DNA of 25,858 nucleotides, taken from IMG/VR virus record IMGVR_UViG_3300005841_000079, positions 1 through 25,858 of that record; one strand, given 5' to 3'. The position numbers and the translations under genes are program-made. Numbering within the stretch: position 1 is the stretch's first letter; every line of letters begins with the position of its first letter. This stretch comes from a virus. Of this stretch, positions 3,007-25,645 are shown in pieces. The notes under the pieces were generated by a model. That model did no database searches. It was not told the DNA's origin and saw only the letters and a program-made list of their open reading frames with translations.

Positions 3007-3030
3007 TTAGTTGCTGGTTGCTGGTTGCTG
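3007..3030. repeat. Triple TTGCTGG microrepeat
   Basis: Three near-perfect copies of TTGCTGG lie in the short gap between the decoration-protein gene and the capsid start. The element belongs to the class of roughly three-unit short repeats that occupy gene junctions across the window. It occupies the place where the capsid gene's ribosome site would be expected. Confidence 0.75.
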
Positions 3031-3036
3031 ATGAGG

Positions 3037-3429
3037 TTACGGCAGGATGACCGGGGCCAATGTGGCGGCCTCGAACAAGTCGCCCGCGGCGGCATCTTCC
3101 AAAGCCACGCCTACCACAACGCGCGCGGTGCCGGCGGCTTCGTCGGTCACGACTGTGCCGTCGTTTTTCTGTTCGAGCCGATCGAACTGCTTGATCGCTC
3201 CGCCGGCTTTGAGCCGGACCGAGCCGGATAACGCGCCGAGGACCCCGACGCTTGAGTTTTTCGCCGCCACTTCGCCATCCAGGATGACGCCGAAGGCGGG
3301 CACGGTTTTGGAATCGTTCAGCGCGTCCACGCCGGCGGCGGCTTTAACGAGGTAACCTTCCTTGCCCGAGTAATCGACGCCGGTAACAAGGATGACGTTG
3401 TTTTCTCTGCTGAATAATGCTGAGCCCAT
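3037..3429 (-). CDS. Head decoration / capsid-associated protein (DUF2190-like)
   Basis: The open frame runs upstream to 3636, but that part overlaps the protease gene and reads as low-complexity nonsense. The ATG at 3429 gives a 130-residue product that starts MGSALFSRENN. It is small, Gly/Ala/Val rich and all-beta in character. Strings such as GYLVKAAAGVDAL, AFGVILDGEVA and GTARVVVGVALEDAAAGD resemble small capsid-decoration proteins of the DUF2190 type. Position between protease/scaffold and capsid supports this. The ribosome site is weak (GCGGAAC), and GTTGGTTG-type repeats lie just upstream. Confidence 0.7.
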   Translation of the reverse strand: MGSALFSRENNVILVTGVDYSGKEGYLVKAAAGVDALNDSKTVPAFGVILDGEVAAKNSSVGVLGALSGSVRLKAGGAIKQFDRLEQKNDGTVVTDEAAGTARVVVGVALEDAAAGDLFEAATLAPVILP

Positions 3430-3496
3430 AAGTTGGTTGATGGTTGTTCCGCGTAAAAGTCTGGCGCTCCTGGCGCCAGCCTCACGCGGCTTTGGG

Positions 3497-4015
3497 TTAA
3501 TCTGTGATACCGAACAGTTCGGGTTTGTCGTTGCGCACGGCGTTCCAGGCTTCGCCGTAGGTGCAACGATTGCGCAATTGATATTCGCGCACGGTGCTTT
3601 CGCGTTCCTTGGCGGTCTTCGCTTCGTCGCCGGCACCCGCCTCTCCTGGCGGGGTGCTGTCCTTGCGGTTCAGCAACGGCTTATCTTTCCCGGCCTTGTC
3701 GTTTGCCATTGTGGGTTTGGCGACGATGTCTTTGAGGAACTCGATGCGATCAGCGCGGTTCTTCATGTTGCTCAACACGGGCTTGAGCTTGGCGCGTTTG
3801 CCGTCGTCTTTGATTCCGTGCGAGTCCAGGTCGGCATCGATCTGTTCGGTGAGAAGTTCGCCGTTGGTCTTCTCCAGATCGGTGACGCGGTTTTTGAGCT
3901 GGGGCAGTTCGGCTTTGATGCCGTCCCGCTCGGTGATGATGCTGGTCACGGCCGCGAGGATCGCGTCTTCGCTCGCCTCGGCGGACAGACCAAGCTTTGC
4001 GGCTACACTGTTCAT
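3497..4015 (-). CDS. Possible nested scaffold product from internal start of protease gene
   Basis: At codon 205 of the protease gene an ATG is preceded by GAAAGGACCC, a purine-rich ribosome-site-like sequence, although its spacing (3 bases after AGGA) is shorter than ideal. Translation from here would give a 172-residue protein consisting only of the helical scaffold half (MNSVAAKLGL onward). In phage Mu the scaffold Z is made from an internal start in gene I. The arrangement here looks equivalent. The existence of a separate product is inferred. Confidence 0.5.
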   Translation of the reverse strand: MNSVAAKLGLSAEASEDAILAAVTSIITERDGIKAELPQLKNRVTDLEKTNGELLTEQIDADLDSHGIKDDGKRAKLKPVLSNMKNRADRIEFLKDIVAKPTMANDKAGKDKPLLNRKDSTPPGEAGAGDEAKTAKERESTVREYQLRNRCTYGEAWNAVRNDKPELFGITD

Positions 4016-4627
4016 GGGTCCTTTCGTTGTTTGTTTGCTGCCCGCCTGGTGGCCCGTCCGGCCAGGACCCAGGCGATTACTGAGAGGGACCATCCCTCTC
4101 AAATTGGGTTTGTTCGTAAGCCCCGCGCCGCTCAATAGCAGCGGGCGGATTTTCATCTCGATCGTTTTGCGTTTCGCGTTCTTCAGCGGTGGCTCGATGA
4201 ATTCCCAGCCTTCTGGCGGGAATACGCCGGACAGGAACCGGAATCGGCCGTTGCGGACCGCGGCCTCGCCTGTGTCGCTCCAGCGGATCTGCCACCAGGC
4301 GCCGGCAGACCGATTCTCCCAAGCTGTGATCCAGCCGGCGGCTTCGCTGGATTTGTTCAGGTCATCTGAGAAATGATCGAAATCAATGAGCAGCCCGGTG
4401 AAGTTCGGCTTGGCGACCAGGGCGTCGAAACTGTTCTTCATCGCGGTCAACGCTTTGTCATCGAGGATCTGCAGGGCCTTGCGGACCGTGCCGTCCGGCA
4501 GTTTCTCGATGTTCGGGAATTGGCCAATGGGCAGCCCGTGATACCAGCCATCGGCCGGGAGCGTGAACTTGCCGTCGGCGCCGCGGTTGGTGAGCGGCAG
4601 TAGTAAACTTGAATAGTCCTGGTTCAT
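3497..4627 (-). CDS. Mu I-like prohead protease with C-terminal scaffold domain
   Basis: The 376-residue product fits Mu-like I proteins, which combine a capsid maturation protease with a scaffold. Residues 1-190 form the protease: LPADGWYHGLPIGQFPN, the LLIDFDHFS segment, and the downstream LLSGAGLTNKPNL string where the catalytic Ser is expected (LSGAGLTNKPN is a hallmark of this family). Residues 205-376 are a helical scaffold with a coiled-coil stretch (about 235-265) and a Lys/Asp-rich tail. The start overlaps the portal stop by ATGA. An in-frame internal ATG (listed separately) could give the scaffold alone. Mu itself makes such a nested product (Z within I). Confidence 0.9.
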   Translation of the reverse strand: MNQDYSSLLLPLTNRGADGKFTLPADGWYHGLPIGQFPNIEKLPDGTVRKALQILDDKALTAMKNSFDALVAKPNFTGLLIDFDHFSDDLNKSSEAAGWITAWENRSAGAWWQIRWSDTGEAAVRNGRFRFLSGVFPPEGWEFIEPPLKNAKRKTIEMKIRPLLLSGAGLTNKPNLRGMVPLSNRLGPGRTGHQAGSKQTTKGPMNSVAAKLGLSAEASEDAILAAVTSIITERDGIKAELPQLKNRVTDLEKTNGELLTEQIDADLDSHGIKDDGKRAKLKPVLSNMKNRADRIEFLKDIVAKPTMANDKAGKDKPLLNRKDSTPPGEAGAGDEAKTAKERESTVREYQLRNRCTYGEAWNAVRNDKPELFGITD

Positions 4628-6228
4628 ATCAGGGTGGTTTTTTTGCGCAGGTCGTCCACGACGGCGTTGGTCATCGATTCGGCTAACACTTCCTGGAGCG
4701 CGGCCGCGTACTCCGGCCGGGCGCGAACCTGGTCCGCCAGGTCGGGCACGTCTTTGAGGAGTTGCTCGAGTTCGCGTTGGAATTGGTCCTGATCAGTCGT
4801 TTGCAGGAGGGCTTCCAGCCGTTGGAAGATGGGTTGCAGACTGGTTGCACGGGCGCGGATGACGCGCTGCATGCCGGTGGACTGCTGGGCCGTTGATCGG
4901 TTGCGGAGTCCCAAGCCTGAAGGCGGGGCGCCTTCAGGAGCACCCGAGGCGGGCGCGCTCCCCGGAGCAGGCTGCGGCTTCAGTTCCAGCGTATAACCGG
5001 TCTTTTCTTTCAGCTCTTCGATGTCGCGCTGATATCCGGCCTGGGCGAGTTTGAATGTATTTTCAACTTCTTCTTTGATGTCCGCTTCGTCGCGTGGACA
5101 GAGTTCCCAATAAGCCAGGGCCGGTTCGCCTGCGTGCTCGCGCGAGAGAACGTCGGCATCGAATTGCTTCTGGAAAACTTCGTTCAGCTCGGCGGCTTCG
5201 CCTTCGGCGATCTCGTCGAACGTATCTTCGTGCGCGCCGCCGGCCAGTGTGCCGCTGCCGCTCTCGGTGAGCATGGTGAGCTTGCCGCCTGTGCCGGCCA
5301 AGACCAGCTCCTCATCCTGATACCGGATATGATCGCGGAACGGGTTCACGCCGCGGGGTTGATCGTTCGGTTTGTAATCGCTCCCGGCCGGTAACGCGCC
5401 GCTGCCGCCGGCAGCGATCCGCGTGGCGGCGTCTTCGTAGTCCTTTTCTTTGCCTTGCTGGATGTTGCCGGGCATCAGGACGACGCCGCTGGGGATGCCG
5501 TAGATCTCGATGAAACCGTCCCAATCTTTTTGGGAGAGGTTCTTGCGCAGGTAACAGAGCAGGCCAACCTCATCGATGGCCATGTCGCACTCGCGAATGA
5601 TGAATCCAGCCGGGTCAATGACGTTGGTTTTGAGCGCATCGAAGGTGCTGGCGCGGCTTTCTTTGTTGTACGCCCATGGGCCGTACAACCCGTCGCGCAC
5701 CCAGGTCCATTGATCGAGTGGTTCGAGATGGATAATGTCGCCGTCGGGGCTGCGGTGCTTTTGCAAATGGCTGAACCCGCGGAACTCGGCCAGGGCCAGG
5801 AACGCGATCGCGCCGCTGAGGTTGTCAATGGCGTCATAGGCGGCGCGCAGGGTTTGTTTCTGGGCGTCGGCCTGGGCCTGGGTGGATCCGAGGGGCAGCT
5901 CGGCCACGGTCTTGATGTCCCAATCCAGCTTTTGCAAGGCGGCCCGGCGCCGGATGATGAGCGCCCGATGTGTGGCGTTGCGTTTCTCGACCAGGCGGTA
6001 CAGCCATTGCAGATCCGCGAATTCACCGCGTTGCCCGGCTTCCATGAGCGTGACGGATCTGGCAACGGTCAGGCCACGAAGTGGGTTGTACCATTCGCGC
6101 CAGCGATTTGTGCCACGGACTAGGCGCTCCATATCCAGCGCCGAGCCGGGGATCGCGGCCTGGACGCGGTTCAGGAGCGGCCAGGCGGCACTGACCAGGG
6201 CGGATTTGAGGTTGCGGAAAAAGGTCAT
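4624..6228 (-). CDS. Portal protein (Mu gp29-like, DUF935-type)
   Basis: The start is the ATG at 6228, which overlaps the TGA of the zinc-ribbon gene by ATGA; the longer open frame upstream is a shadow of that gene. The 534-residue product has the expected features of Mu-type portals. These include an N-terminal segment with NPLRGLTVARSVTLMEAGQRGEFADLQWLYRLVEKRN, then HRALIIRRRAALQKLDWDI, then a core with FIEIYGIPSGVVLMPG (typical YG.P string). The acidic helix QDEELVLAGTGGKLTMLTESGSG follows, with a C-terminal helical region. It forms the ring through which DNA enters the capsid. The Pro/Gly/Ala-rich stretch near 415-440 is probably a flexible linker before a helical C-terminal tail. No MuF gene follows. 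Confidence 0.9.
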   Translation of the reverse strand: MTFFRNLKSALVSAAWPLLNRVQAAIPGSALDMERLVRGTNRWREWYNPLRGLTVARSVTLMEAGQRGEFADLQWLYRLVEKRNATHRALIIRRRAALQKLDWDIKTVAELPLGSTQAQADAQKQTLRAAYDAIDNLSGAIAFLALAEFRGFSHLQKHRSPDGDIIHLEPLDQWTWVRDGLYGPWAYNKESRASTFDALKTNVIDPAGFIIRECDMAIDEVGLLCYLRKNLSQKDWDGFIEIYGIPSGVVLMPGNIQQGKEKDYEDAATRIAAGGSGALPAGSDYKPNDQPRGVNPFRDHIRYQDEELVLAGTGGKLTMLTESGSGTLAGGAHEDTFDEIAEGEAAELNEVFQKQFDADVLSREHAGEPALAYWELCPRDEADIKEEVENTFKLAQAGYQRDIEELKEKTGYTLELKPQPAPGSAPASGAPEGAPPSGLGLRNRSTAQQSTGMQRVIRARATSLQPIFQRLEALLQTTDQDQFQRELEQLLKDVPDLADQVRARPEYAAALQEVLAESMTNAVVDDLRKKTTLI

Positions 6229-6611
6229 GGCTGAGCGTGAAGCATCTGGAGCATGGCGCGTGGAGCGTGGGAGGGGGTATGGACATCCATCCTTATCGTT
6301 CCAATGTCCGTAACTGCCTGTTCCGTGCGAAATTTTGATGGTTTTATCGATGGCGGCGGTGGGGATGAAATCCGGGGATGATCCTTCTCCCATCGGCGTG
6401 TGCGGCAAAGGTCCGAACAAAAGGCGGCGCCAGGGGTTTTGGGCGTGAAGAGGCCGGTGCATTCGCAACAGTGCCGTGGCTGAGGCCGGAAGATCCGCGG
6501 GCGCTCCGCTTTCCACCCATGGATCCGGCAGAGGTCCGAGCAAACCTTCTTCGTCGCGCGTTTCGGCGTGAACGGCTTCCCGCAGACCGGGCATGGGATC
6601 GGGGTCTTCAT
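6225..6611 (-). CDS. Small protein with two tandem zinc ribbons
   Basis: The 128-residue product lies between the large terminase and portal genes. It shows two copies of one metal-binding pattern. The first is CPVCGKPFTP (C7, C10) with CSDLC (C24, C28). The second is CCECTGLFTP (C48, C51) with CSDLCRTRRW (C65, C69). The eight Cys fit two zinc sites of the short ribbon type. The C-terminus (about 108-128) is encoded by a GCTCCACGC-type microrepeat and reads as low-complexity Met/His/Pro. Phage Mu has a small zinc protein, Com, but that gene sits elsewhere and homology is not implied. The start codon has no clear ribosome site; two CACGGAT elements lie upstream. Confidence 0.65.
   Translation of the reverse strand: MKTPIPCPVCGKPFTPKRATKKVCSDLCRIHGWKAERPRIFRPQPRHCCECTGLFTPKTPGAAFCSDLCRTRRWEKDHPRISSPPPPSIKPSKFRTEQAVTDIGTIRMDVHTPSHAPRAMLQMLHAQP
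6241..6271. repeat. GGAGCATGG / GGAGCGTGG microrepeat
   Basis: About three copies of a TGGAGC(A/G)TGG unit, overlapping the 3' end of the zinc-ribbon gene on the minus strand and so encoding its last residues (PSHAPRAMLQMLHA). It is another of the short three-unit junction repeats. Related CCATGCTCC strings occur near 21230. Confidence 0.65.
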
Positions 6612-6616
6612 GGGTG

Positions 6617-6673
6617 GACACTGTGAAATCCGTGTCTCATCCGGCTCAGTGTTAATTCGTGAAATCCGTGTCT
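6617..6673 (-). repeat. Two tandem CACGGAT-type elements after terminase gene
   Basis: Two copies in the minus orientation (6617-6637 and 6647-6673). The upstream one begins directly at the TGA stop of the large terminase gene (TGA followed by GACACGG). They fill the whole gap between terminase and zinc-ribbon genes and so occupy the latter's ribosome-binding region. Confidence 0.85.
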
Positions 6674-8139
6674 CATCCAGCCAGGCTCCTTTCGCGGCGA
6701 TCGGCGATCACCCGGCTGTGCCTGGTGTTCTCCGGGACAATGATTCGGCCGACGACGCTGGGCATCGAGCCGGCCCGGTTGCATAGCGCCAGGCCAGTGC
6801 AGCGATCGGCGTGGCCGTCTTCAGTGTGCGGCGCGCGATAGGTGACTGTGCCGGCGGCCGTCACGACTCGGTTCATCGAGTGCAGGTCCTCGCGAATGAT
6901 GCGGTTGATCGGGATCAACCATTTGCGCCCTTCGAATTTCATCTTGAGTTTGCTGAACAGGTCAACCTTGATGGGGTTGCTGATCGTCACTAATTCGATC
7001 TTGCCGAACCTGTCCGCTTCCAGTTTCCATTCGCCGAACTCTGCGACCAGGTAATCGCCCAGGCCAACGCCAGGCCCCGTGTAATCCAAACAGACCCGGC
7101 GCGCTTTCTTGATGCGCGGCCTTAAGTGCTCGACCTGGTCCGGCGTGCTCATATTTTCCAGGCAAAGAACTTCTTTGGTGATCTGCATGTCCGCGACGGC
7201 TTCGGCTGACCAGGCGACGGTCAGATTTTTTTTACGGCCGAAATCGATGCCGATGTCCACCGGGAAGGGCGATGTGCTCAGCCAATATTCGAAATCGATT
7301 GCCTCAGTGGCTTCGGCGCTTTCGCAGAGGCCAATGAGTTCGTAGGGCAAGAGGACGGTGGCTTTGTCGAGGAATTCCAGCGGGTCATATTCAATTGCCC
7401 AACCTTCAGGATCATCGAGTGCGGCGCGGAGTTCCTCGATGTCGATGGGCAGGCCCTGGGCGACGGCATCGGTAATAGTGATCTTGTGGCAGCTCCATTT
7501 GGCGTCCGGCCCGCCAAAGTTTTTCGACCATAGATCGTGAAATTTGTTGCCTTTGCCGTTCGGCGTGGAGATGAGGCGGCACTTCTTCTGCCCGCCCCGC
7601 AGCGGATTGGTAATGCTGGGCAGGATGGCGCGCCAGGTGGCATCCGGATTTTCAAAGAAGGCAAACTCGGTGAGCAGGATATTCGCGGAGAAACCACGGA
7701 CAGTGTCGGGTTTGCCAGGGACGGCGATGACGCGTGAGCCGTTCGGGAAAACGATGGTGCTGGATTTGAGGAGTGTTTCGGACCCGCCTTCGCGTTCTTC
7801 GATGACGTCCTCGATGGCGAGCTTGTAGGCCTCCGTCCATTCGCGCCATTTGAGAAACGATTCAACGGCCTGGCGTTCGGATGGCGCGGCAATGAGCCAT
7901 GAGGTTTTGTCACCGTTCAACTCGCGTTGGTAACAGTCACGGATGCCTTCCTCAGCGCTGGTGAAGTCTTTGCCGACCTGGCGCGCCATGAGCCCGATCT
8001 TAAAACGCGAATCGTCATCCGCCCATTTGCGTTGATAAGGCAGGAGCAAATCGCGCGGGGAAGGATCGGGACCGGCATTGGGGCTTTGCGCATTGGCCTT
8101 TCTGCCAGTCCCGCCCTCGTTCTGGTTTGGTGAAATCAT
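6673..8139 (-). CDS. Terminase large subunit (Mu gp28-like)
   Basis: The frame is open to 8748, but the ATG at 8139 begins the real protein (488 residues), just downstream of a CACGGAT element. It is the packaging motor ATPase and nuclease. An ATP-binding string ARQVGKD lies at 52-58 and a motif III-like LISTPNGKGNKF at 189-200. The Walker B position reads ILLTEFAFFENP (154-165), with Thr where Asp is usual before Glu. The nuclease half shows DIGIDFGRKKN (D295, D299), VCLDYTGPGVGLGDYL (D352) and a C-terminal TEDGHADR (D441, D445). Length and order fit the Mu-type large terminase. Confidence 0.92.
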   Translation of the reverse strand: MISPNQNEGGTGRKANAQSPNAGPDPSPRDLLLPYQRKWADDDSRFKIGLMARQVGKDFTSAEEGIRDCYQRELNGDKTSWLIAAPSERQAVESFLKWREWTEAYKLAIEDVIEEREGGSETLLKSSTIVFPNGSRVIAVPGKPDTVRGFSANILLTEFAFFENPDATWRAILPSITNPLRGGQKKCRLISTPNGKGNKFHDLWSKNFGGPDAKWSCHKITITDAVAQGLPIDIEELRAALDDPEGWAIEYDPLEFLDKATVLLPYELIGLCESAEATEAIDFEYWLSTSPFPVDIGIDFGRKKNLTVAWSAEAVADMQITKEVLCLENMSTPDQVEHLRPRIKKARRVCLDYTGPGVGLGDYLVAEFGEWKLEADRFGKIELVTISNPIKVDLFSKLKMKFEGRKWLIPINRIIREDLHSMNRVVTAAGTVTYRAPHTEDGHADRCTGLALCNRAGSMPSVVGRIIVPENTRHSRVIADRRERSLAG

Positions 8140-8149
8140 CAGCTCAATT

Positions 8150-8176
8150 CCGTGATAATCCGTGTAATCCGTGTCT
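8150..8176 (-). repeat. CACGGAT-type element between terminase genes
   Basis: One copy in the minus orientation. Its first bases (TAGACACGG) supply the TAG stop of the small terminase gene, and its end lies about ten bases before the large terminase ATG, replacing the usual ribosome-site region. Confidence 0.85.
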
Positions 8177-8720
8177 AGCTCATGCCGAAGATGGCGCGCA
8201 GGCGCGTCTGCTTTTCTTCGGGTGAAAGCTTCTTGTCGCTGGTGACCACCTCCGCTTCCTCTGCTTGCTTGGCTTTCTGCTCGAGGATGGCCAGGCGGCG
8301 TTCTTCCAGGCCCCGATCGGCGCGTTGTTCCTGCACTTTCAAATAGGCCATCACCGGTTTCATGCAGTCGCTGGCGGTCTTGAGCAGCTCGGGGTTGGCT
8401 GTCGCCTGCAGGCTGAGTTGCATGATCAGGACCCGATGCAGTTTGATCAGGGTCTCGACTTCCGGCGGGGCGTCCTTGGCGAATTGTTTCTCCACCTGTT
8501 TCACCGCTGCAGCGCCGGAGCTGATCCGGTCCAGGACTCGGTCCTGCAATCGTTGTTGCTGGCGTTTCTCCCACCAGTCCGAGAGTAAGGATGGCGAGAC
8601 TGAAAGTTTGTAGCGCTCGAGCAAACGGCCGCAGGCTTCCTGCAGGGTGACCTTGTCGTCGAACCATGCCTCCAGCTCCGCGCTGTGCGGATCCAATTTC
8701 GATTTTTTCTCTTTGGGCAT
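8175..8720 (-). CDS. Terminase small subunit-like (Mu gp27-like, DUF3486-type)
   Basis: The 181-residue product precedes the large terminase, where Mu has gp27 (DUF3486). It starts PKEKKSKLD and reads as a DNA-binding N-terminal part: LEAWFDDKVTLQEACGRLLERYKLSVSPSLLSDWWEKR looks like a helix-turn-helix (about 15-52). A long helical region follows (55-165) with VETLIKLHRVLIMQLSLQA. This layout is typical of the family, which recognises phage DNA for packaging. The ATG directly follows a TGA encoded by the neighbouring repeat. Confidence 0.85.
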   Translation of the reverse strand: MPKEKKSKLDPHSAELEAWFDDKVTLQEACGRLLERYKLSVSPSLLSDWWEKRQQQRLQDRVLDRISSGAAAVKQVEKQFAKDAPPEVETLIKLHRVLIMQLSLQATANPELLKTASDCMKPVMAYLKVQEQRADRGLEERRLAILEQKAKQAEEAEVVTSDKKLSPEEKQTRLRAIFGMS

Positions 8721-8888
8721 TCAAGACACGGATTTCACGGATGAACACGGATGCCGCCCAGCGCCAGCCCGCCCAGATCGGGCTGGTCGCTGTCTTTGCA
8801 ATTCGCCGCGCAGACCCAACAACCTGGGACGATTGTCTCGCAGCACGTGAACTGCGTAACGGCCGCTCCGCAGTTCAATCGGTTTCAT
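8721..8888 (-). CDS. Possible small basic protein with repeat-encoded C-terminus
   Basis: An ATG at 8888 opens a 55-residue frame that reads MKPIELRSGRYAVHVLRD and continues with a very Arg-rich stretch (RPRLLGLRGELQRQRPARSGR). The last ten residues (HPCSSVKSVS) and the TGA stop come from a CACGGAT element, and the stop abuts the ATG of the small terminase gene. A TTG at 8909 would extend it by seven residues. It fills the only otherwise empty gap in the cassette. Real expression is uncertain. Confidence 0.35.
   Translation of the reverse strand: MKPIELRSGRYAVHVLRDNRPRLLGLRGELQRQRPARSGRAGAGRHPCSSVKSVS
8724..8752. repeat. CACGGAT-type element upstream of small terminase
   Basis: One plus-oriented copy (GACACGG at its left end, three CACGGAT-like units), just before the small terminase start as read on the minus strand. 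Confidence 0.85.
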
Positions 8889-8905
8889 TTTTTTTAAGAA
8901 TGCGT

Positions 8906-9169
8906 TCAAATTTGCATCACTTTGTGTTTGCCCTTCGGCGTCAGGGTCCAGCTCATGGTGTGATCCATCTCGTCTTCAGTGCCATGGATGTAACCGTTGT
9001 GCTCGAGCTCGCGTTTTGCTTCATTGATGTCGCCCACGCTCGGCTCGCGGCCGGCGGCGCTTTTGAACGCCTGGCGCCCGCTCTCGATCAACACAGCGTC
9101 GGGCATCGGCGCGCCGTCCATCCGCTTGAGGGCTTGCAAGAGAAACTTTTTCAGGTCGGCCTTTGTCAT
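8906..9169 (-). CDS. Small winged-helix-like hypothetical protein
   Basis: The 87-residue product is compact and mixed helical. An opening helix (TKADLKKFLLQALKRM) is followed by AVLIESGRQAF, then a segment VGDINEAKRELEHNGYIHG that resembles the recognition helix and start of a wing, and a closing strand MSWTLTPKGKHKVMQI. The closing strand resembles the wing of a winged-helix domain. I do not recognise the family. It follows the 170-residue gene at a short distance, with an ATTTACG-type repeat in between. Confidence 0.6.
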   Translation of the reverse strand: MTKADLKKFLLQALKRMDGAPMPDAVLIESGRQAFKSAAGREPSVGDINEAKRELEHNGYIHGTEDEMDHTMSWTLTPKGKHKVMQI

Positions 9170-9186
9170 TTACGATTTGCGATTTA
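9168..9186. repeat. ATTTACGATTTGCGATTTA junction repeat
   Basis: Units of CGATTTA/CGATTTG lie between the TAA stop of one minus-strand gene and the ATG of the next, contributing bases to both codons. The same unit occurs at 10549-10569 in an equivalent junction. Confidence 0.75.
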
Positions 9187-9696
9187 TGAGTCCGTGGCTG
9201 GCGCCGGGATCGTCTCGCGGAATTTGTGATAGGCGGCTGCCGTATCCGAAATCGGTTCCCTTGCTTCCTTGAGTTTAGCCCTGCGATAGGTCGCGTCGCT
9301 GCCGGCGCCGGTCCGGTGCAGCTCGCCGCGGTTGCTCATATCGAGTAGATTGACAGAGACGCTATTGAGCCGGTCTTCGAGCTGTGGGGCCGCTTTTCTG
9401 ATCTCCACGCGAACGGCCGCTGCATTCATTGCTCCGACTGATTTGCGAAAGACTTCGCGAATGGCGTCCACGACTTTGAAACGCCGCTGCGGTCGGGGAC
9501 CGACCGCGGTCCGTTCGGCTTTCGGCTTGCGGCCGGAGTTCGGTTTGCGATGGGTGCCGTTGCGGGCTATTGGCATCAGCGCCGGCAAAGCCTGCCCGTC
9601 GTCGCGGAAGAGCTCACGCAGTTGCTGGCTCATCCGTTGCAGTTCCGCGATGCGCGATTCGATGGCCGCGATTGTTCCCTGGATATGTTCGTTCAT
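9184..9696 (-). CDS. Hypothetical protein with coiled coil and winged-helix-like domain
   Basis: This 170-residue product has three parts. Residues 1-30 form a coiled coil (GTIAAIESRIAELQRMSQQLRELF). A basic Arg/Lys-rich linker (about 45-68, with SGRKPKAERTAVGPRPQRR) follows. Residues 70-135 look like a winged helix (VVDAIREVFRKSVGAMNAAAVRVEIRKAAPQL, then LLDMSNRGELHRTGAGSDATYRRA). This points to nucleic-acid binding. The start overlaps the receiver-domain stop by ATGA, so translation is probably coupled. The family is not recognised. Being next to packaging genes could mean a role in DNA recognition. Confidence 0.65.
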   Translation of the reverse strand: MNEHIQGTIAAIESRIAELQRMSQQLRELFRDDGQALPALMPIARNGTHRKPNSGRKPKAERTAVGPRPQRRFKVVDAIREVFRKSVGAMNAAAVRVEIRKAAPQLEDRLNSVSVNLLDMSNRGELHRTGAGSDATYRRAKLKEAREPISDTAAAYHKFRETIPAPATDS

Positions 9697-10157: not shown

Positions 10158-10171
10158 TGGTGGCCCTGCAC

Positions 10172-10543: not shown

Positions 10544-10548
10544 TTCCC

Positions 10549-10569
10549 ATTTGCGATTTACGATTTACA
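10549..10569. repeat. TTTGCGATTTACGATTTAC junction repeat
   Basis: Three related units fill the gap between the 59-residue gene's stop and the next ATG on the minus strand. Same family as 9168-9186. Confidence 0.75.
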
Positions 10570-10574
10570 AAGCC

Positions 10575-10754: not shown

Positions 10755-10755
10755 A

Positions 10756-11512: not shown

Positions 11513-11517
11513 GGGAC

Positions 11518-19945: not shown

Positions 19946-19950
19946 CATTT

Positions 19951-21087
19951 ATGAGTTTAGAACGTAATGCGGTGTTGGAGTTGGAGGATGTCGAGGTGCC
20001 GGCGCGGCGGGGGCATTCACCGCCGGCTGAGCGGGATCAGGATCGGCCGCGTGAGATCAATTTGAGCGGTGATACTGTCACGATCAAGACGGCTGATTAT
20101 CCGGAGGAGCAGCGGAGCTTGGTGCGTTGGCTTTTCGCCTGGGCCAAGGAGCAGGGTTGGAGTTGGAAGGATCTGGAGGGGAATTCCAAGCTGAGTGTCA
20201 CGACGCTTTATCGGGTATGGACGGGTAAGTACCGGTACCCGGCCAATCACGCGAAGGCGGGGGATTTGATCCCGCTGGATGGCATCTGCGAGCGGATCGC
20301 GCATTTCAAGGCGCTGGCTGAGGAGCGGGCGACGTTGCGGCGGTTGCCTTTCGTGGAAACAAGTGTGTTCAAGCGGATCGATAGGTTGTGCCGCGAGACG
20401 TTGGTGATGCAGTCGATCTCGATGATTTATGGGGAGTCGCAGATCGGCAAGTCTTGGGCGCTCAAAGAGGTTGCCCGGCGGAATAATCATGGGAATACGC
20501 CATATGTGCTTACGCCGGCCAGCGCGGGTGTGCAGGGGTTGATCCAGGCGATCGGCGATGCATGTCATATCACGGGGCGGACCAGCTTCGCTGTGTTGCG
20601 TGAGCGGGTGACGAATTTCCTGGATGATTCGAAGTTGCTGATCATCGATGAGGTGCATGAGATTTTCATTTCCTATTATCGCGATTCGCGGCTGCGGTGC
20701 CTCAGCGTTCTCCGCCAGATGCAGGAAATCTCCGGCTGTGGGCTGGTGCTCTGCGGCACGAATGTATTCCGGCATGAGCTGGAGCAGGGTGAGTTTGCAC
20801 AGTCTCTGAAACAGCTCCGTAAACGGGGTATTTTGGAGTTGCAGCTTGAGCCTGTGCCCAGCGCGAAGGATCTGGAGTTGATCGCGGGGCATTACCGGCT
20901 GGGGGCGCCCGCGGGTGAGGCGGCGGAGTTGGTGGGCTGGATCGGCAAGGAGTTTGGCTTGGGCAAATATACCAGGTTCCTGGCGCGGGCGTCGCAGCTC
21001 GCCGCCAAACGCGGGGAGCGGTTTGCCTGGCGGCATTTCTGTGATGTGGTCGCGATCGCGAATCGAATGAAGCAGGAGGCGAAGTGA
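19951..21087 (+). CDS. MuB-like AAA+ ATPase, target-capture protein
   Basis: The 378-residue product begins five bases after the transposase stop. An N-terminal region includes a helix-turn-helix-like part (about 50-90, EEQRSLVRWLFAWAKEQGWSW, then SKLSVTTLYRVWTGKYR). The ATPase domain has Walker A GESQIGKS at 161-168 and Walker B LLIIDEVHEI at about 229-238, followed by sensor-type strand LVLCGTNVF. MuB activates the transposase and selects target DNA, preventing insertion into phage-covered DNA. Gene order A then B is the same as in Mu. The C-terminal segment is helical, as in MuB. Confidence 0.92.
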   Translation: MSLERNAVLELEDVEVPARRGHSPPAERDQDRPREINLSGDTVTIKTADYPEEQRSLVRWLFAWAKEQGWSWKDLEGNSKLSVTTLYRVWTGKYRYPANHAKAGDLIPLDGICERIAHFKALAEERATLRRLPFVETSVFKRIDRLCRETLVMQSISMIYGESQIGKSWALKEVARRNNHGNTPYVLTPASAGVQGLIQAIGDACHITGRTSFAVLRERVTNFLDDSKLLIIDEVHEIFISYYRDSRLRCLSVLRQMQEISGCGLVLCGTNVFRHELEQGEFAQSLKQLRKRGILELQLEPVPSAKDLELIAGHYRLGAPAGEAAELVGWIGKEFGLGKYTRFLARASQLAAKRGERFAWRHFCDVVAIANRMKQEAK

Positions 21088-21095
21088 ATAATCGT

Positions 21096-21127
21096 AAGTT
21101 GTCAGTTGTGGGTTGTGGGTTGTCGAT
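21096..21127. repeat. GTTGTGGGTTGTGGGTTGT repeat
   Basis: About four GTTGTGG/GTTGTC units directly after the MuB-like gene. Related GACAACCC/ACAACCC units occur at 16869-16886 and, degenerate, at 22682-22697, where they touch the Gam start. Confidence 0.7.
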
Positions 21128-21296
21128 TTTGTGCGGCACAAACCGCGAGAAGGTAGTCGGTAGTCTCGGCAGGAAAGGAACAGCCTGCGGGCCGGGGCGC
21201 CCACAAGCCCCAGGCGCGCTCATGGCCGCAAGTCCATGCTCCATGACTGCGCGCTGCCCCCGAAGCTGGGTCGGAAACCAGTTTTGTGCCGCACAG
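21128..21296. mobile_element. Possible MITE-like element with TTGTGC/GCACAA ends
   Basis: Two palindromic copies of TTGTGCNGCACA(A/G) (21128-21142 and 21284-21296), inverted to each other with AAACC and GGAAACC next to them, bound about 170 bases of GC-rich, non-coding sequence. The inner part has short arms GGGGC/GCCCC. It lies between the MuB-like gene and the MazG-like gene and could instead be a regulatory site pair. Not recognised as a known element. Confidence 0.35.
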
Positions 21297-21316
21297 GTTT
21301 TTATTGGAGGTGGTCG

Positions 21317-21622
21317 ATGACTCCTGAGATTGCGGCTTGGATCGAATCTGACGTTCTGAGGCGGCAAGCGATCATGGAGGATATTCTTGATGAACGTGGC
21401 CGGCAGGAGGCGTTGGTGCGTGATGGGGAGCTGCCGTTCACTTGCGCTGATCCGAAAGTGCCAGAGTTGCGCAAATTGCCGGTGCTCATGGAGGAGGTGG
21501 GCGAGGTCGCCGCCGAGCTCCAAGGCGATGCGACGGAGCGCGAGCGGCTTTACAATGAGTTGATCCAAGTGGCAGCCGTCGCCGTGGCCTGGGCGGAGTC
21601 GCTCAAGGAGGGCGGGCAATGA
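21317..21622 (+). CDS. MazG-like nucleotide pyrophosphohydrolase
   Basis: A good ribosome site, GGAGGT, lies six bases before the ATG. The 101-residue product resembles phage MazG-like proteins: ILDERGRQEAL, then LRKLPVLMEEVGEVAAEL (EEVGE at 59-63), then NELIQVAAVAVAWAES. The family hydrolyses (d)NTPs using an EExxE...ExxD metal site. Here the second half reads E81-L-I-Q84, with Gln in place of the Asp, so activity may be altered. It could change nucleotide pools or signalling alarmones during infection. The stop overlaps the next start by ATGA. Confidence 0.75.
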   Translation: MTPEIAAWIESDVLRRQAIMEDILDERGRQEALVRDGELPFTCADPKVPELRKLPVLMEEVGEVAAELQGDATERERLYNELIQVAAVAVAWAESLKEGGQ

Positions 21623-22065
21623 ACCTGAAGATCCAAAAGGATCAGTGGAACAATGAAACGCATTCGGGGCCGTTGTTTCCGGGCGCTGAGGATCGCCAAT
21701 TTGCCTACCAGGGCGAGAGCGTCCGCGGCGGCATGACCATTGAGCTTCACATTAGCGGCTTGCCCCCGCACAGAGCCGAAGGAAAGCTGAACCATGAATT
21801 GGAGGAGTCGGTTTATTCCGCGTACAGACTGACGATTGAGCGCAGCACCGGGAAGGCGCTCTATTTCAAACTCTCGGGTATCAGGAAAGATATCGTTGAA
21901 CAGCGCAAGGCGAATGGGTTCGCCGTTACCGAGGATGTCCTGGCCAAGACTCTGACGTTTGGTGAGCTGGCAAATATGATCTTCTCCTCAGGCGCGCAGG
22001 TGTTTTATGAGCGCGAGTCGTTTCCAAAGTCTGTGGAGGAGGAACTGCGGAAATGCTATCGATGA
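21619..22065 (+). CDS. Hypothetical protein (148 residues)
   Basis: Coupled to the preceding gene by ATGA. The product is mixed alpha-beta: MTIELHISGLPPHRAEGKLN, then YSAYRLTIERSTGKALYFKLSGIRKDIVEQR, then a helix LAKTLTFGELANMIFSSG, with a basic end. No motif is recognised. It is placed among nucleotide, antirestriction and end-protection genes, so an accessory infection function is likely but unknown. Confidence 0.65.
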   Translation: MNLKIQKDQWNNETHSGPLFPGAEDRQFAYQGESVRGGMTIELHISGLPPHRAEGKLNHELEESVYSAYRLTIERSTGKALYFKLSGIRKDIVEQRKANGFAVTEDVLAKTLTFGELANMIFSSGAQVFYERESFPKSVEEELRKCYR

Positions 22066-22292
22066 AAGTTTCCACGATCAAACCAGCCCTCAAGTTGAAG
22101 GGGGAAGCGTCGCGGTTCAAAACGCTGGCTGAACAGGCGGCGCTGCGGGCGCTGGTCGGCCCGGTGGATAAACGGCCAGAGGAGGAAAAACTCGCGCGCG
22201 AGCATGCGCTGCGCTCGGAAACTTTTGCCACGGCGGCAAAGCTGGTCGAGGCGAACGCTCCGGATCAACAATGCCACGACAAAGGCCACTGA
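22062..22292 (+). CDS. Hypothetical basic helical protein (76 residues)
   Basis: The ATG at 22062 overlaps the previous stop by ATGA; an earlier ATG at 22053 in the same frame is an alternative. The product is helical and charged (KVSTIKPALKLKGEASRFKTLAEQAALRAL, then KRPEEEKLAREHALRSETFATAAKLVEANA). A 13-base direct repeat (ACGCTCCGGATCA) straddles its end. No family is recognised. Confidence 0.55.
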   Translation: MKVSTIKPALKLKGEASRFKTLAEQAALRALVGPVDKRPEEEKLAREHALRSETFATAAKLVEANAPDQQCHDKGH

Positions 22293-22326
22293 ACGCTCCG
22301 GATCAGCGACCCGGCGCAACAAAAGT

Positions 22327-22686
22327 ATGAATACGACCAAACCGGCTCCGCCGGGTTCGCTGCATCCGGTGGTTAGCCCGCTTCCGTGCCCGTTCTGTGG
22401 CTCGACCCGAATAACCGTGGAGTGGGAACCGTGCCCGCCACTCGACGCGACCGACACCAACCGCCGATGGTTCGCAGAGTGCATGGACTGCTCTTGCCAA
22501 GGGCCGTTCTGCCAGAAGGAACCGCAGGTCATATCGGCTTGGAATAAAGTCTCCGGCGAAGTCGCCTGGCTGGATCTCCGCTCGGTGCGTGATGCCGCCC
22601 GCCGGCTGGGCGTCGTCTTGAAGTTCTATCAACCAGGGCGAGCTCCTCAGAGTCGCCGTTTTCCACAGATTTGCCCAAACCTCTAA
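22327..22686 (+). CDS. Lar-like restriction alleviation protein
   Basis: The ATG at 22327 is used; upstream reading is in shadow. The 119-residue product matches the Lar-type pattern: LPCPFCGS (C21, C24), then RWFAECMDCSCQGP (C52, C55) and ISAWNK (A71, W72, N73). These form a zinc ribbon. Lar proteins reduce cleavage by host type I restriction systems by stimulating modification. The C-terminal 40 residues (about 80-119) are additional. The position between two accessory genes fits an early anti-host role. Activity is inferred from the pattern. Confidence 0.85.
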   Translation: MNTTKPAPPGSLHPVVSPLPCPFCGSTRITVEWEPCPPLDATDTNRRWFAECMDCSCQGPFCQKEPQVISAWNKVSGEVAWLDLRSVRDAARRLGVVLKFYQPGRAPQSRRFPQICPNL

Positions 22687-22697
22687 CCCACAAACCC
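22682..22697. repeat. ACCCACAAACCCA junction repeat
   Basis: A short two-to-three-unit AACCCA string fills the gap between the Lar-like stop and the Gam start, occupying the ribosome-site position of the latter. Confidence 0.5.
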
Positions 22698-22698
22698 A

Positions 22699-23226
22699 AT
22701 GACCATTGTAGAAATCGAATCTCTCACCAAAGCGTTCGCTGATGTGCGCAACGAGTTGGCCGACGTTGTCGGTGTCTTAAATCTCCAGATCGAGAACGCC
22801 AAGCGCAAGCACTTGGCCGATATCAAACGCCTGGTCGCTCGCTGCGCGGATAAACATGGCGCGCTCAAGGCCGCGATCGAATCGGCGCCGGGCTTGTTCG
22901 ATAAGCCGCGCACGGCTGTCTTCCATGGGATCAAGGTCGGGTTCCGCAAGAGCTCTGGTTCGGTGGATTGGGAGGATGATGAGCAGGTGGCCAAGCTGGT
23001 CGAGAAGCATTTCCCCGAGCAGCTCGATTTGTTGGTGAAGACGTCGCGTAAGCCGATCGCCAAGGCGTTGTTGCAATTGAGCGTGGCTGAGCTGAAGAAG
23101 ATCGGCTGCACGGCCGAGGAAACGGGTGATGTGGTCGTGATCAAGCCCACCGACTCGGAGGTAGATAAAATCGTCAATGCGCTGCTCAATGATGCGACGG
23201 AGGAGGCGGCTGAGGAGGCGGCATGA
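22699..23226 (+). CDS. gam: Host-nuclease inhibitor Gam
   Basis: The 175-residue product clearly fits the Mu Gam family. It has a long coiled-coil start (about 15-60) with VRNELADVVGVLNLQIENAKRK, then the hallmark VFHGIKVGFRKSSGSVDWEDDE (about 73-95) and KTSRKPIAKALLQLSVAELKKIG. Gam binds double-stranded DNA ends and blocks exonuclease attack; it is regarded as a relative of eukaryotic and bacterial Ku. It ends in an acidic helical tail (EEAAEEAA). The stop overlaps the next start by ATGA. A polymerase X-like gene lies two genes downstream. Confidence 0.93.
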   Translation: MTIVEIESLTKAFADVRNELADVVGVLNLQIENAKRKHLADIKRLVARCADKHGALKAAIESAPGLFDKPRTAVFHGIKVGFRKSSGSVDWEDDEQVAKLVEKHFPEQLDLLVKTSRKPIAKALLQLSVAELKKIGCTAEETGDVVVIKPTDSEVDKIVNALLNDATEEAAEEAA

Positions 23227-23462
23227 GTTTGTTCCTTGGATATGTGAATCGCTGGGGCCGGGTCGTTGTGAAGCCGTTCAACATGGCGGATCAAATCGAT
23301 GCAATGGGTTCTCCGTCTGTTGTGGCGGTAATGCCCGGCATTGAAGCTCTCACCTACGACGAAGCGTTGAGCGAGGCCAATCGAAGAGTGAAGGCCGGTG
23401 AGGTGGTGAAAACTTTCGCGGCATCAGGCAATCCGCAACCCATAACTGACCAAACTCAATGA
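23223..23462 (+). CDS. Hypothetical protein (79 residues)
   Basis: Coupled to Gam by ATGA. The product opens SLFLGYVNRWGRVVVKPFNMADQ, then ALTYDEALSEANRRVKAGEVVKTF. The last ten residues (NPQPITDQTQ) are encoded by a repeat-like AACCC/AACTGACC tract. No family is recognised. Its conserved coupling between Gam and a further unknown suggests a small accessory of DNA-end functions. Confidence 0.6.
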   Translation: MSLFLGYVNRWGRVVVKPFNMADQIDAMGSPSVVAVMPGIEALTYDEALSEANRRVKAGEVVKTFAASGNPQPITDQTQ

Positions 23463-23806
23463 ACATTGAAGCTCAAACTCTGGCTGATCCCGGTGCGGAA
23501 AATATCGATTGCTGGGCGCTGGTTGAAATCTTCGGCCATACCAAAGTGGCTGGGAGGGTCACTACTCGCAAAGTCGGCGTCAACGTAATGATCCAGGTCG
23601 ATGTGCCGAAGAACCAGGCTGAGTTCAGTCATTCACAATTGTTCAGTCCCTCCGCGATTTTCTCGATCAATCCGACGACGGAGGATTGGTGCAGGCGATG
23701 GGCGAAGGCCGCCGCGTCTTACGATCGGAATCCTTTGCCGTATATCCCCGCCGAACCGAAGGCGATCGAGGGTGGGTTGGAGCCGGAGCTCCATGATCAA
23801 AGTTGA
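23459..23806 (+). CDS. Hypothetical phage protein (115 residues)
   Basis: Overlaps the previous stop by ATGA. The fold appears mostly beta: IDCWALVEIFGHTKVAGRVTTRKVGVNVMIQVDVPKN, then SQLFSPSAIFSINPTTEDWCRRWAKAA. The WALVEIFGH.K.AGRV opening and SAIFSI.PT string are of a kind common in small phage and prophage proteins of unknown role. The product ends HDQS. It directly precedes the polymerase X-like gene. Confidence 0.65.
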   Translation: MNIEAQTLADPGAENIDCWALVEIFGHTKVAGRVTTRKVGVNVMIQVDVPKNQAEFSHSQLFSPSAIFSINPTTEDWCRRWAKAAASYDRNPLPYIPAEPKAIEGGLEPELHDQS

Positions 23807-23812
23807 GGGCTT

Positions 23813-24322
23813 ATGTCTCTGTCTCTCAGCCAGGCCGAAAAGCTCGCCAAAAAAATCCTGGCGGAGCTTTCGCCGTTCTGTGAGCGGATCGAGATCGCCG
23901 GAAGCATCCGACGCCGGCGGCCGGCGGTGAATGACATCGATATCGTGGCGCTGCCGGCCTTCGACCAGGTGAATGCGTTGCGTGAACGGGTGCTCCGCAA
24001 TACTTCGCCGATCTCGGATGGCAAGGAGATCATTCTCACGCGCCTTTCCAATGGTGTGCAGCTCGATTTGTGGATTGCTGATCGGCCTCATAGGGATTTG
24101 TTCAGTAAGCGGCCGACGAATTTCGGGGTGTTGTTGCTGAGCCGGACAGGATCTAAGGAGCATAATATCTGGCTTTGTCAGCGGGCGGAATCACTCGGGC
24201 GCCGGCTGAATCCGCATCACGGGGTCTTCGAGCAGCGCCGGTGCCTGGCCAGCGCGTCTGAAGAGGATGTGTTCGCGGCGTTGAATCTGGATTTTATCCC
24301 GCCAGAACGGAGGGAGCGATGA
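23813..24322 (+). CDS. Minimal family X DNA polymerase-like nucleotidyltransferase
   Basis: The 169-residue product has the palm and thumb parts of family X DNA polymerases. GS motif G30-S31 is in EIAGSIRRRRPAVNDIDIVALP; metal ligands are D41 and D43, and the third Asp is D85 in VQLDLWIA. The thumb has LLSRTGSKEHNIWLCQRAESLGRRLN and DVFAALNLDFIPPERRE, as in PolX. The 8-kDa, fingers and PHP parts of full-length PolX are missing, so the enzyme is about half or less of usual size. It might fill short gaps, for example after transposition. All catalytic residues appear intact. Confidence 0.88.
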   Translation: MSLSLSQAEKLAKKILAELSPFCERIEIAGSIRRRRPAVNDIDIVALPAFDQVNALRERVLRNTSPISDGKEIILTRLSNGVQLDLWIADRPHRDLFSKRPTNFGVLLLSRTGSKEHNIWLCQRAESLGRRLNPHHGVFEQRRCLASASEEDVFAALNLDFIPPERRER

Positions 24323-24355
24323 TGTCGAATGCCGGTATCGTGGAGTGAATGTGCC

Positions 24356-24907
24356 ATGACGGAAAAGCAGGAGAAGTTGTATTGGCGTGAGTGGGCTGCA
24401 GTGCGCGCGGCCTGGCCGGAGGCGGATCGGCATGAGTTGCACGCGCGCGCGCTCGGGACGGATAAGTCGCATCGGATTTTTTCGAATGCGGATTTTGATC
24501 GTGTGCTCGCCCAGTTTCGCGCTGTATCGCGCCCGACTGATGTTGATGCGCAGCTTCGCCAGCTCCGCCAGGTGCGCATGCGGTTGATCTGGAAGATCAC
24601 GGTGGAGCAGGTGGCGTTGCTCTCGGTATTCATGGATGGGACCCATGAGACTGAGCGACAGGCCTCGGCGGAGAATTATGTTTTGAGCGTGATGCGGGAT
24701 CGGTTTCACACCGATCGCATCGAGAGCCTGACCAACGGCCACGGCGATGAACTTGGTCAACTCGAAATGCTCCGCGATACCCTCGCCGCGCGGATCAATG
24801 AGCTGCGAAAAAAACGCGGGTTGACTGGCCATGAATTGGCCAAAGTTGCCGGCCAGAAATGCGCCTGCAAAGAGTGCTCGCGCCAACGCCTGGATGAAGC
24901 CGCTTGA
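24356..24907 (+). CDS. GemA/Mu gp16-like protein with C-terminal Cys cluster
   Basis: The start at 24356 gives 183 residues. Residues 4-62 (KQEKLYWREWAAVRAAWPEADRHELHARALGTDKSHRIFSNADFDRVLAQFRAVS) recall DUF1018/GemA of Mu, a regulator of host gene expression and DNA relaxation. The rest is helical, with a segment MRDRFHTDRIESLTNGHG and a coiled region. The end, GQKCACKECSRQR, may bind zinc. The assignment is tentative. Its end overlaps the next gene by 14 bases. Confidence 0.55.
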   Translation: MTEKQEKLYWREWAAVRAAWPEADRHELHARALGTDKSHRIFSNADFDRVLAQFRAVSRPTDVDAQLRQLRQVRMRLIWKITVEQVALLSVFMDGTHETERQASAENYVLSVMRDRFHTDRIESLTNGHGDELGQLEMLRDTLAARINELRKKRGLTGHELAKVAGQKCACKECSRQRLDEAA

Positions 24908-25232
24908 GCAGCCCGAATTGTTCCCGCCAAAGGGGCCAAAAATAAGCGAAACAGACGTGGGGAAATTGCTTCAATTTTTGGCTGGAAACGGCTGGCTGGC
25001 GGGCAGGCAAATCCAGGCTGTTTTGGGGTGGCAGGAACGCTATCTCCGGGGGGTCGCCAACGCCAGCCGCGGGAGGGTCCTTTCTTACCCCGGATCGCCA
25101 GGCTACAAGCTCACCAAAGAGGCCACCAAAGAAGAGGTCGATGCGGCCGATATTTTGGGGCATCAGGCGAATGAAATGCGGCGACGCCTGATCGAGATCC
25201 GTAACGTTTTCTATGGACGCCGTCAGGCTTGA
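24894..25232 (+). CDS. Winged-helix-like protein, last rightward gene
   Basis: The start at 24894 lies inside the end of the preceding gene. The 112-residue product has a segment KLLQFLAGNGWLAGRQIQAVLGWQERYLRGVANASRGRVLSYPGSPGYKLT (about 25-75) that reads as a winged helix: helix, helix, recognition helix, then a wing with SPGYKLT. The C-terminal EEVDAADILGHQANEMRRRLIEIRNVF is helical. It could regulate the end of the early unit or middle/late expression, the role of Mor in Mu. No family is recognised. Confidence 0.6.
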   Translation: MKPLEQPELFPPKGPKISETDVGKLLQFLAGNGWLAGRQIQAVLGWQERYLRGVANASRGRVLSYPGSPGYKLTKEATKEEVDAADILGHQANEMRRRLIEIRNVFYGRRQA

Positions 25233-25645
25233 AAAGCGTCGGAGGGGTTTACAGTCTGCACACGCGTTGCAGTCTCGTTTCACACACTTTGCGGCTGGCT
25301 GCAGAAATGCACCTCGAACGCCGTTTGAGAGCCTCCAACGATATCAAACCTATTGTTTTCCGCCCATTTTGCCTCGCTGTGTGTGGAACCTCACTAAGGC
25401 CGCGTTTTCGTCCTAAAGCCTTGATTTCCGCTGATCTTCGGCCAACTCTGCCGATGTAGTGAACCTCGTTCGAACTTGACTCGGATTTTGAGAAATGCTC
25501 ACCCTCTCCCCGGTCCTCTCCCATCGGACGCGAGAGGGAGAATCGAGCTTTGTCGGTCGGCGTATCCAGTCGGTTGAGGGGTCATTGAGGGGTCATTGAG
25601 GGGTCAGTCCCAAATATTGACACACATCTATTTGCTTTCATCATC
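25233..25645. other. Non-coding right flank with candidate prophage end
   Basis: No gene seen. Near 25284 and 25375 the strings GTTTCACACAC and, inverted, GTGTGTGGAAC could be part of transposase-binding sites at the prophage right end; the exact end (expected to terminate in CA) cannot be fixed. A GAGAGG/CCTCTC hairpin-like segment (about 25506-25545) and three GAGGGGTCATT units (25574-25607) follow; the latter border a transposase remnant. Confidence 0.4.
25574..25607. repeat. GAGGGGTCATT triple repeat
   Basis: Three near-identical 12-base units TGAGGGGTCATT, the last ending TGAGGGGTCAGTCCC. GGGGTCAGTCCC-like strings are typical of the surroundings of REP-associated tyrosine transposase genes, and such a remnant starts 40 bases to the right. 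Confidence 0.8.

Follow-up and report, generated by a model that had tools for sequence, protein, structure and literature searches.

Short tandem-unit arrays at the gene junctions of a Mu-like phage as candidate members of small repeat families dispersing in Verrucomicrobiota

The DNA analysed here (the window) is the whole of IMG/VR virus record IMGVR_UViG_3300005841_000079, 25,858 bp long, of which positions 1-25480 are part of a Mu-like transposable phage. Its gene junctions carry micro-repeats, short arrays of three to four units whose words differ from place to place; this observation, first made in an earlier note on the same DNA, is confirmed. We propose, with a probability of about 0.6, that the micro-repeats are singlets and inverted doublets of many small non-autonomous families dispersing in Verrucomicrobiota and in their resident Mu-like prophages. 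The proposal draws on dispersed copies, genome-specific words, filled and empty sites, hairpin pairs and a characteristic period spectrum, all of which we observed directly.

Results

All ten words singled out in the earlier note, which had seen in them unrelated repeats of one architecture, are present where it had placed them, the GTTGTGGG site among them. Counting ungapped arrays of period 6-13 with a score of at least 11, we found 19 in the window compared with a mean of 1.0 and a maximum of 3 in 20 dinucleotide shuffles; shuffled sequence, the control that the note had proposed, gives far fewer arrays. Likewise, the same 6-mer occurs three times at 6-13-nt spacing in 11 instances (30 shuffles gave 0.3 on average and 3 at most). 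Placement was assessed on 28 hand-listed sites, weaker copies included, one of which (25574) falls outside 1-25480. Non-coding DNA, 12.1% of bases 1-25480, contains 23 of the 28, and the junction zone (non-coding, or no more than 20 bp from a hand-curated gene end; 19.4% of the same bases) holds 24. Five of the sites are mostly coding, namely 714-743 (at a junction), GGAGCGTGG at 6247-6270, GATAGG at 11189-11208, CCTATCG at 16239-16269 and CAACCCA at 16860-16886, and all of these except the one at 16239 lie within 20 bp of a gene end. The description of the elements as having about three units was loose, heptamer arrays in related loci peaking near four units with a range of 2.5-12.

Copies of single blocks are dispersed within and beyond the window. 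The CACGGAT array is a block of 29 bp whose linkers of 2 and 3 nt are fixed, and the window contains 12 copies of it at 21-28 of 29 matches; no copy with at least 21/29 matches occurred in 10 shuffles. Because it is one dispersed block, its sites are not independent of each other. A 16-mer core of CACGGAT was found in 75 of 384 genomes of one class, with a maximum of 42 per genome and none for the reversed control in any of them, and a stricter 26-base pattern in 2 of 21 genomes with related prophages and in 17 stretches of virus contigs. The 37-bp CTTCAAC block of genome G225 recurs at about 50 further places among the matches listed, with 85-100% identity (40 of 437 candidates were scored in this first look). 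Inverted CTTCAAC pairs, deliberately selected for inspection, surround REPIN-like cores (in one case a different core), and 400 kb of G225 contains 19 single block matches, some adjoining a core, and one inverted pair. Other dispersed repeats of this genome are nested mosaics with arrays at their tips. The tandem architecture is not universal, however, because the commonest dispersed families in genome G309 are palindromes that lack tandem units.

Two side observations concern nesting. At loci L193-L205 of G225, REPIN-like elements (GGAGTCCCG..CTTCAGACGG / CCGCGTAAACGCGGTACTCC) are nested within inverted CTTCAAC arrays. In a genus with small genomes (L366 and L367, from G421 and G407), the intergenic DNA is a mosaic of repeat modules with GGCTGATT, CACAGAG, GTCCTATTG and GCAGATTTC words; the intervals between distant inverted segment copies in these two loci contained only further repeats and unrelated frames, and no autonomous element.

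Whole arrays are present in some prophages and absent from their sisters. Prophages L078, L081 and L086 share 80-95% identity over kilobase blocks, and L078 carries about 105-130 extra bp inside an open gene (11263-13518), consisting of an array, a non-repeat interior and an inverted array, which L081 and L086 do not have. L086 contains arrays of 45 and 60 bp, both multiples of three, within the open gene of its large terminase (TerL), missing from L078 and L081. A 98-bp inverted pair in L072 stands just ahead of the point at which the homologous gene of L073 starts, and L073 is without it; array segments missing in sisters were also found in L065 (22 bp, at a gene end), L072 (33 bp, within a called gene) and L353 (25 bp), and three insertions of one longer word in L063 have no counterpart in L065. 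At a host junction, G225 has three stacked arrays (about 230 bp) compared with about 50 bp without an obvious array in G403, as judged by eye. Looser indel screens flagged 9/19 and 5/15, and they erred both ways: the flagged G412C63, G424C5 and G407C27 are not array insertions, and the unflagged sites at 4043 in L065 and 6843 in L072 are. Homologous prophages thus differ by whole blocks, some with an interior and both arms, which is not a change of unit number alone at fixed loci. Where an array is missing in two sisters, gain rather than loss is favoured, although the comparisons do not prove which state is older.

Words are reused within a genome and rarely between genomes. The comparison took in 170 heptamer arrays of at least 24 nt from 41 genomes or phages, excluding G225, the CACGGAT-selected loci and L094-L116: within a genome 37.6% of 479 pairs were alike, compared with 1.2% of 3000 random pairs between genomes. 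The AGTGANC word of prophage L047 gave 65 pattern matches, at 26 places spread over 12 contigs, in its own genome (G010); three other genomes had no match, and the reversed control had one. The octamer GGANGNTT occurs in the L086 terminase and in the L353 insertions, and seven congeners contain 314, 121, 79, 40, 17, 3 and 2 matches (overlapping ones counted), with none in two other genomes and one for the reversed control in all. A prophage word that is widespread in its own genome is therefore shown by one clear case and one genus. Two arrays of G010 exceed 15 units (AGTGAGC, at G010:C4:6-142 and G010:C36:15142-15257), one of them at a contig start, and assembly breaks may follow such long arrays.

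We counted arrays by record title (intergenic arrays of period 7-11, loci longer than 8 kb). Genes, arrays and insertions were all called with rough tools of our own, and most of the sequence comes from metagenome-assembled genomes and virus contigs. The 40 loci titled Verrucomicrobiota contain 113 intergenic arrays in 62,929 bp (1.80 per kb; 33 loci with some), the 4 loci titled only 'bacterium' contain 5 in 5,161 bp, and 3 other-titled loci that are closer relatives contain 7 in 4,452 bp (1.57 per kb). In 19 loci of other phyla from among L094-L116 there are 4 in 21,091 bp (0.19 per kb; 2 loci with some). Unrelated genomes, the second comparison called for in the earlier note, therefore speak for its observation, Mu-like loci of other phyla having about tenfold fewer arrays per intergenic kb. 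Shuffled intergenic DNA gave no arrays in the Verrucomicrobiota-type and other-phyla groups alike, L097 (titled Verrucomicrobiota) being counted with the latter in this control. Across whole loci, heptamer arrays number 133 in 753,833 bp under Verrucomicrobiota titles (48 loci), 3 in 75,152 bp under 'bacterium' titles (6 loci), 11 in 65,794 bp for other-titled loci with close terminases (5 loci) and 2 in 383,469 bp for distant other phyla (21 loci). Prophage loci contain 43 heptamer arrays in 363,438 bp compared with 18 in 309,129 bp of host DNA of the same genomes, a twofold excess on which we build no conclusion. As a side observation, L041, L045, L056, L057 and L085 combine other-phyla titles and close terminases with a Verrucomicrobiota-like array density; they are misbinned contigs or point to wider hosts.

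The period spectrum, summed over six sets, comprises 2, 3, 119, 39 and 32 intergenic arrays at 5, 6, 7, 8 and 9 nt and 25, 3, 7, 3 and 16 at 10, 11, 12, 13 and 14 nt. There is an excess of 7-nt tandem units over chance, and the 14-nt peak may partly be their harmonic. Periods 8, 9 and 10 are about equally common, from which it follows that the intergenic spectrum is not shaped by reading frame. Unrelated words share this one spectrum (7 far above 8, 9 and 10) and one kind of place, which bears out the view that there are many words and no single mobile repeat. The further step of setting a common mechanism against mobility is not supported, as families are dispersed and sister prophages differ in which blocks they carry.

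Of ten adjacent pairs of like arrays, nine are inverted and one is direct. The inverted pair of L072 folds with z -2.36, more weakly than two pairs of the window (z -5.73 and -5.61), and three stretches of the window that hold a single array hardly surpass their shuffles in folding (z -0.27, -0.44 and -1.44). Single arrays do not have the self-complementary 20-40-bp unit that defines repetitive extragenic palindromic (REP) elements and REPINs. Unit order scored a mean of 18.9 compared with 16.4 for shuffled units over 77 heptamer pairs; a larger figure of 783/1090 comes mainly from G225 octamers and carries no general weight.

The minus strand of the window encodes the major capsid protein, a Mu-like protease, a Mu-type portal and TerL, and the plus strand a transposase and a TniB/MuB-like gene; the features are collected in Table 1. 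Two other virus records, in the pieces compared, match the window at 100% wherever they overlap it (both over 1-18139, then one over 18500-23806 and the other over 18500-25480). The record reaching the right end diverges from the window at about 25480 and runs into different DNA; the last ~380 bp of the window therefore lie outside the phage and are most likely host flank, and the GAGGGGTCATT array (25574-25606), located beyond this point, is not in the phage. Two different right flanks of the same phage (window 25481-25858, and L120 in G001) are a sign of insertion at different sites. Of the terminase relatives (80 kept of 270 found), 48 of the 80 come from genomes titled Verrucomicrobiota in a wide sense, with Kiritimatiellae and Lentisphaerae counted in.

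Some genes of the window deserve mention. The open reading frame (ORF) 6225-6611 is cysteine-rich and overlaps the likely portal start, its last codons being made by the TGGAGCG array; by eye it is reminiscent of Mu Com. The first codons of 10779-11222, apparently a lipoprotein-type signal peptide as judged by eye, are encoded by the GATAGGC array. Genes for a response-regulator receiver domain (9693-10550) and a thymidylate kinase (11822-12556) lie inside this Mu-like phage.

Table 1. Repeat arrays and the right-hand flank in the window
Feature	Positions	Strand	Remarks
Two CACGGAT-block copies, same orientation	29-93	-	28/29 and 21/29 to block consensus
CACGGAT block directly upstream of minus-strand ATG at 711	715-743	+	27/29
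Inverted pair of CACGGAT-type blocks with short loop, junction 972-1394 / 1473-1961	1403-1475	.	Fold -35.2 kcal/mol, z -5.73
GTTGCTG heptamer array between capsid gene 2056-2997 and 3037-3429	3004-3030	+	
TGGAGCG array, last codons of ORF 6225-6611, beside likely portal start 6228 (by eye)	6247-6270	+	
CACGGAT-block copies between ORF 6611 and TerL	6623-6676	-	6644-6672 is 25/29
CACGGAT block filling the 35-bp gap from the stop of 8175-8720 to TerL start 8139	8147-8175	-	25/29
CACGGAT block ~4 bp upstream of the start of 8175-8720	8725-8753	+	28/29
ATTTACG heptamer array spanning start 9169 and supplying stop 9184-9186	9168-9186	+	
ATTTACG-type heptamer array at gene start 10543	10541-10568	+	
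TCAGTAA + GGTCAGT heptamer array supplying stop codon 10779-10781	10758-10797	+	
GATAGGC array within first codons of gene 10779-11222	11189-11208	+	
CGCAGATGAA 10-mer array	11485-11511	+	
CACGGAT block followed by two inverted copies, the first two of the three forming a hairpin	11517-11627	.	11517-11592: -38 kcal/mol, z -5.61
GGGCTGA array 3 bp from thymidylate kinase gene stop	11795-11819	+	
CACGGAT block, then CCTATCG heptamer array	14498-14561	+	
CCTATCG array in coding sequence	16239-16269	+	Variant unit CCCANCG common to 14531-14561 (by eye)
CACGGAT block directly after the stop of 15946-16449	16451-16479	+	28/29
GTTGTGG heptamer array 7 bp after TniB/MuB-like gene stop	21094-21128	+	
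Non-phage flank; an interrupted frame adjoins three TTGAGGGGTCA units (25574-25606) that end in GGGGTCAG	25481-25858	.	

Discussion

On the reading that we favour, each singlet of about 20-40 bp and each inverted doublet of about 75-250 bp would come from one small non-autonomous family, and copies would land also in the DNA of resident Mu-like prophages. Those that break genes would be lost and those at junctions, beside stop or start codons, or in frame would be kept, so that selection would be the cause of the placement at junctions. After landing, 7-nt arrays would change in unit number and order, slippage being the probable cause of the reshuffling, and some 8-10-nt families would stay fixed blocks. 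Heptamer words disperse, but their arrays seem to undergo reshuffling or re-expansion afterwards. The blocks may be moved by a putative trans-acting enzyme. A narrower proposal, which we regard as tentative and on balance doubtful, is a Verrucomicrobiota dispersal system other than RAYT (REP-associated tyrosine transposase) that would recognise or make short tandem-unit blocks: three to four units at 7-10-nt spacing would be its substrate, the word would drift, and a lineage dialect would be written into host and prophage.

A number of results weigh against dispersal of small families. Heptamer pairs keep their unit order in only 8/77 cases at the 5% level (about 4 expected); this leaves most heptamers without a sign of block copying, and they cannot be regarded as strict block copies. 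In a strict screen of 17 pairs, 1 array was found among 22 clean indels, and none of the 5 insertions of the group L089/L091/L097 contains arrays. Inspection by eye, at 80-95% identity and with edges blurred by divergence, revealed no target-site duplication, and the orthologous host junctions compared number one. Most prophage/host pairs are without an obvious common word (at most 20 kb of host per prophage) and one inserted L072 word has only 2 matches in its genome; the match of words between prophage and host is therefore shown for some pairs only. Because five other-titled loci with close terminases hold arrays, the contrast between taxa follows phage clade, or misbinning, as much as title. 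The rough gene caller puts 64 of 140 heptamer arrays in 'coding' sequence. Finally, none of 39 Y1 transposase loci has the same array on both sides.

Each array could instead have arisen on the spot by replication slippage, as heptanucleotide simple-sequence repeats, with common words reflecting biased composition. The sharp 7-nt peak, also reported in the published surveys as far as we drew on them, the variable unit number, the weak conservation of unit order and the two arrays of G010 with more than 15 units would all fit. We nevertheless consider this unlikely, since like words at many sites per genome, rare between genomes, fixed 29- and 37-bp blocks with common linker variants, and blocks that are present with a non-repeat interior and both arms in one prophage and missing in its sister all speak against it.

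Somewhat less likely still is a selected cis-acting role of the arrays, for instance as sites bound by a translational or mRNA-processing factor, in a genome-specific code. Such a role has been proposed for TAACTGA repeats in the part of MacGregor 2015 (PMC4679880) used here, and 66 co-directional intergenic heptamer arrays are tightly placed, the upstream stop being no more than 10 nt away for 35 of them and the downstream start for 26. However, the CACGGAT copies, six per orientation, use both orientations equally, which argues against one strand-specific RNA signal; closure of three frames is equally frequent on both strands, arrays occur inside open genes, and the terminator-like matches in 1-17000 overlap no listed array. 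Rfam gave no match in the window at gathering scores. The gap before TerL, where the preceding gene was taken as the small terminase by position and a 32nd locus was skipped, is no more than 2 nt in 23 of 31 relatives and the scan found no array there, a zero that rests on gene calls because in L013 an array lies 34 nt inside the called TerL start. The short gap in relatives, set against the 35-bp array-filled gap in the window, points to a tolerated insertion and not to needed spacing, and the spacing of coupled genes, suggested in the earlier note, is not supported. The interpretation in that note is partly supported, while the functions it put forward are without support.

We give about the same low standing to REP/REPIN-type elements moved by RAYT (Y1) transposases, or to terminal inverted repeat (TIR) families of TIRtrons. 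The habit of singlets and inverted doublets, nesting with REPIN-like cores, is what would be expected of them, and the GAGGGGTCATT array ends in GGGGTCAG, which fits GGGGWSAS, beside a frame that contains a stop and looks to the eye like a fragment of a Y1 (HUH) transposase. In L235, TGACCC x4, an array similar to the GAGGGGTCATT array, lies near a Y1 gene. On the other hand, Pfam found no match for the 48 residues of the window fragment, single arrays do not fold, and the only Y1 match of G225 adjoins an inverted pair of a different palindrome, with no arrays in ~1.5 kb. Neither this match nor the 39 Y1 loci support RAYT/Y1 transposases as general movers. Among the 39 genomes surveyed for both features, Y1 is present in 5/5 with the CACGGAT 16-mer and in 26/34 without it, which is no useful contrast.

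It is highly improbable that the arrays are three-frame stop signals, made of three units of a length not divisible by three that hold a stop codon: several window words contain TAA, TAG or TGA, some arrays supply the stop of the preceding gene (9184, 10779) and at least one frame is closed in 54/101 arrays in sense and 42/101 in antisense, but all frames are closed in 19/101 in both, no more than in column-shuffled controls (123/595), and period 9 is about as common between genes as 8 or 10, so that this is refuted as a general function.

The preferred reading, small families that disperse, can be compared with several known systems. In the sections of Rehm 2015 (PMC4692102) used here, the GGGAATC / GGGGAYT heptamers of Xanthomonas and Nostoc are mostly intergenic, mostly of four units and near gene ends, and are solitary or in inverted pairs, with 70 and 75 pairs in two Xanthomonas. 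The arrays described here are alike in all these respects; in contrast, the Xanthomonas/Nostoc repeats, as presented there, are of one G-rich word type that is mostly kept between the two Xanthomonas, whereas here a genome has several words and sister prophages differ. The TAACTGA repeats of Beggiatoaceae, as outlined in MacGregor 2015, consist of 2-6 heptamer units, are intergenic, lie for the most part shortly before starts, and in forward orientation close all three frames, for which a translational role was proposed. Ours share the heptamer units between genes; unlike that single word, they show no strand bias in closing three frames. REP/REPIN and TIRtrons, as far as covered in the portion of Di Nocera 2013 (PMC3733652) consulted, resemble our arrays in having 20-40-bp units, singlets and inverted dimers, and high copy number between genes, and the GGGGTCA array fits GGGGWSAS, the TIR motif of TIRtrons. 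They differ in that our arrays are tandem, not self-complementary, and not on both sides of Y1 genes in the 39 loci. Miniature inverted-repeat transposable elements (MITEs) are short non-autonomous inverted-repeat elements that insert between genes. The inverted pairs around a short core may bring our arrays near to them, but the arrays have tandem-unit tips, and 400 kb of G225 holds 19 single matches against one inverted pair; no parent transposon of the MITE type was found at the Y1 loci and a few intervals, other transposases not having been searched systematically. Cyanobacterial short tandemly repeated repetitive (STRR) heptamers and small dispersed repeats are tandem heptamers and tiny mobile repeats between genes, to which our arrays would be similar. 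In the open-licence literature, judged mostly by title or the start of the abstract, we found no description of such arrays in Verrucomicrobiota phages.

To conclude, intergenic heptamer arrays were known before in other groups and, going by the parts of those papers drawn on here, one word type at a time and with the mechanism unsettled. Sites that are filled in one sister prophage and empty in another suggest arrival of the arrays as whole blocks. A caution follows for annotation, as an array at a junction is not necessarily a regulatory signal. Words reused within a genome give each lineage a signature, common words may link Mu-like phages to their hosts, and what writes the arrays becomes a directly testable question.

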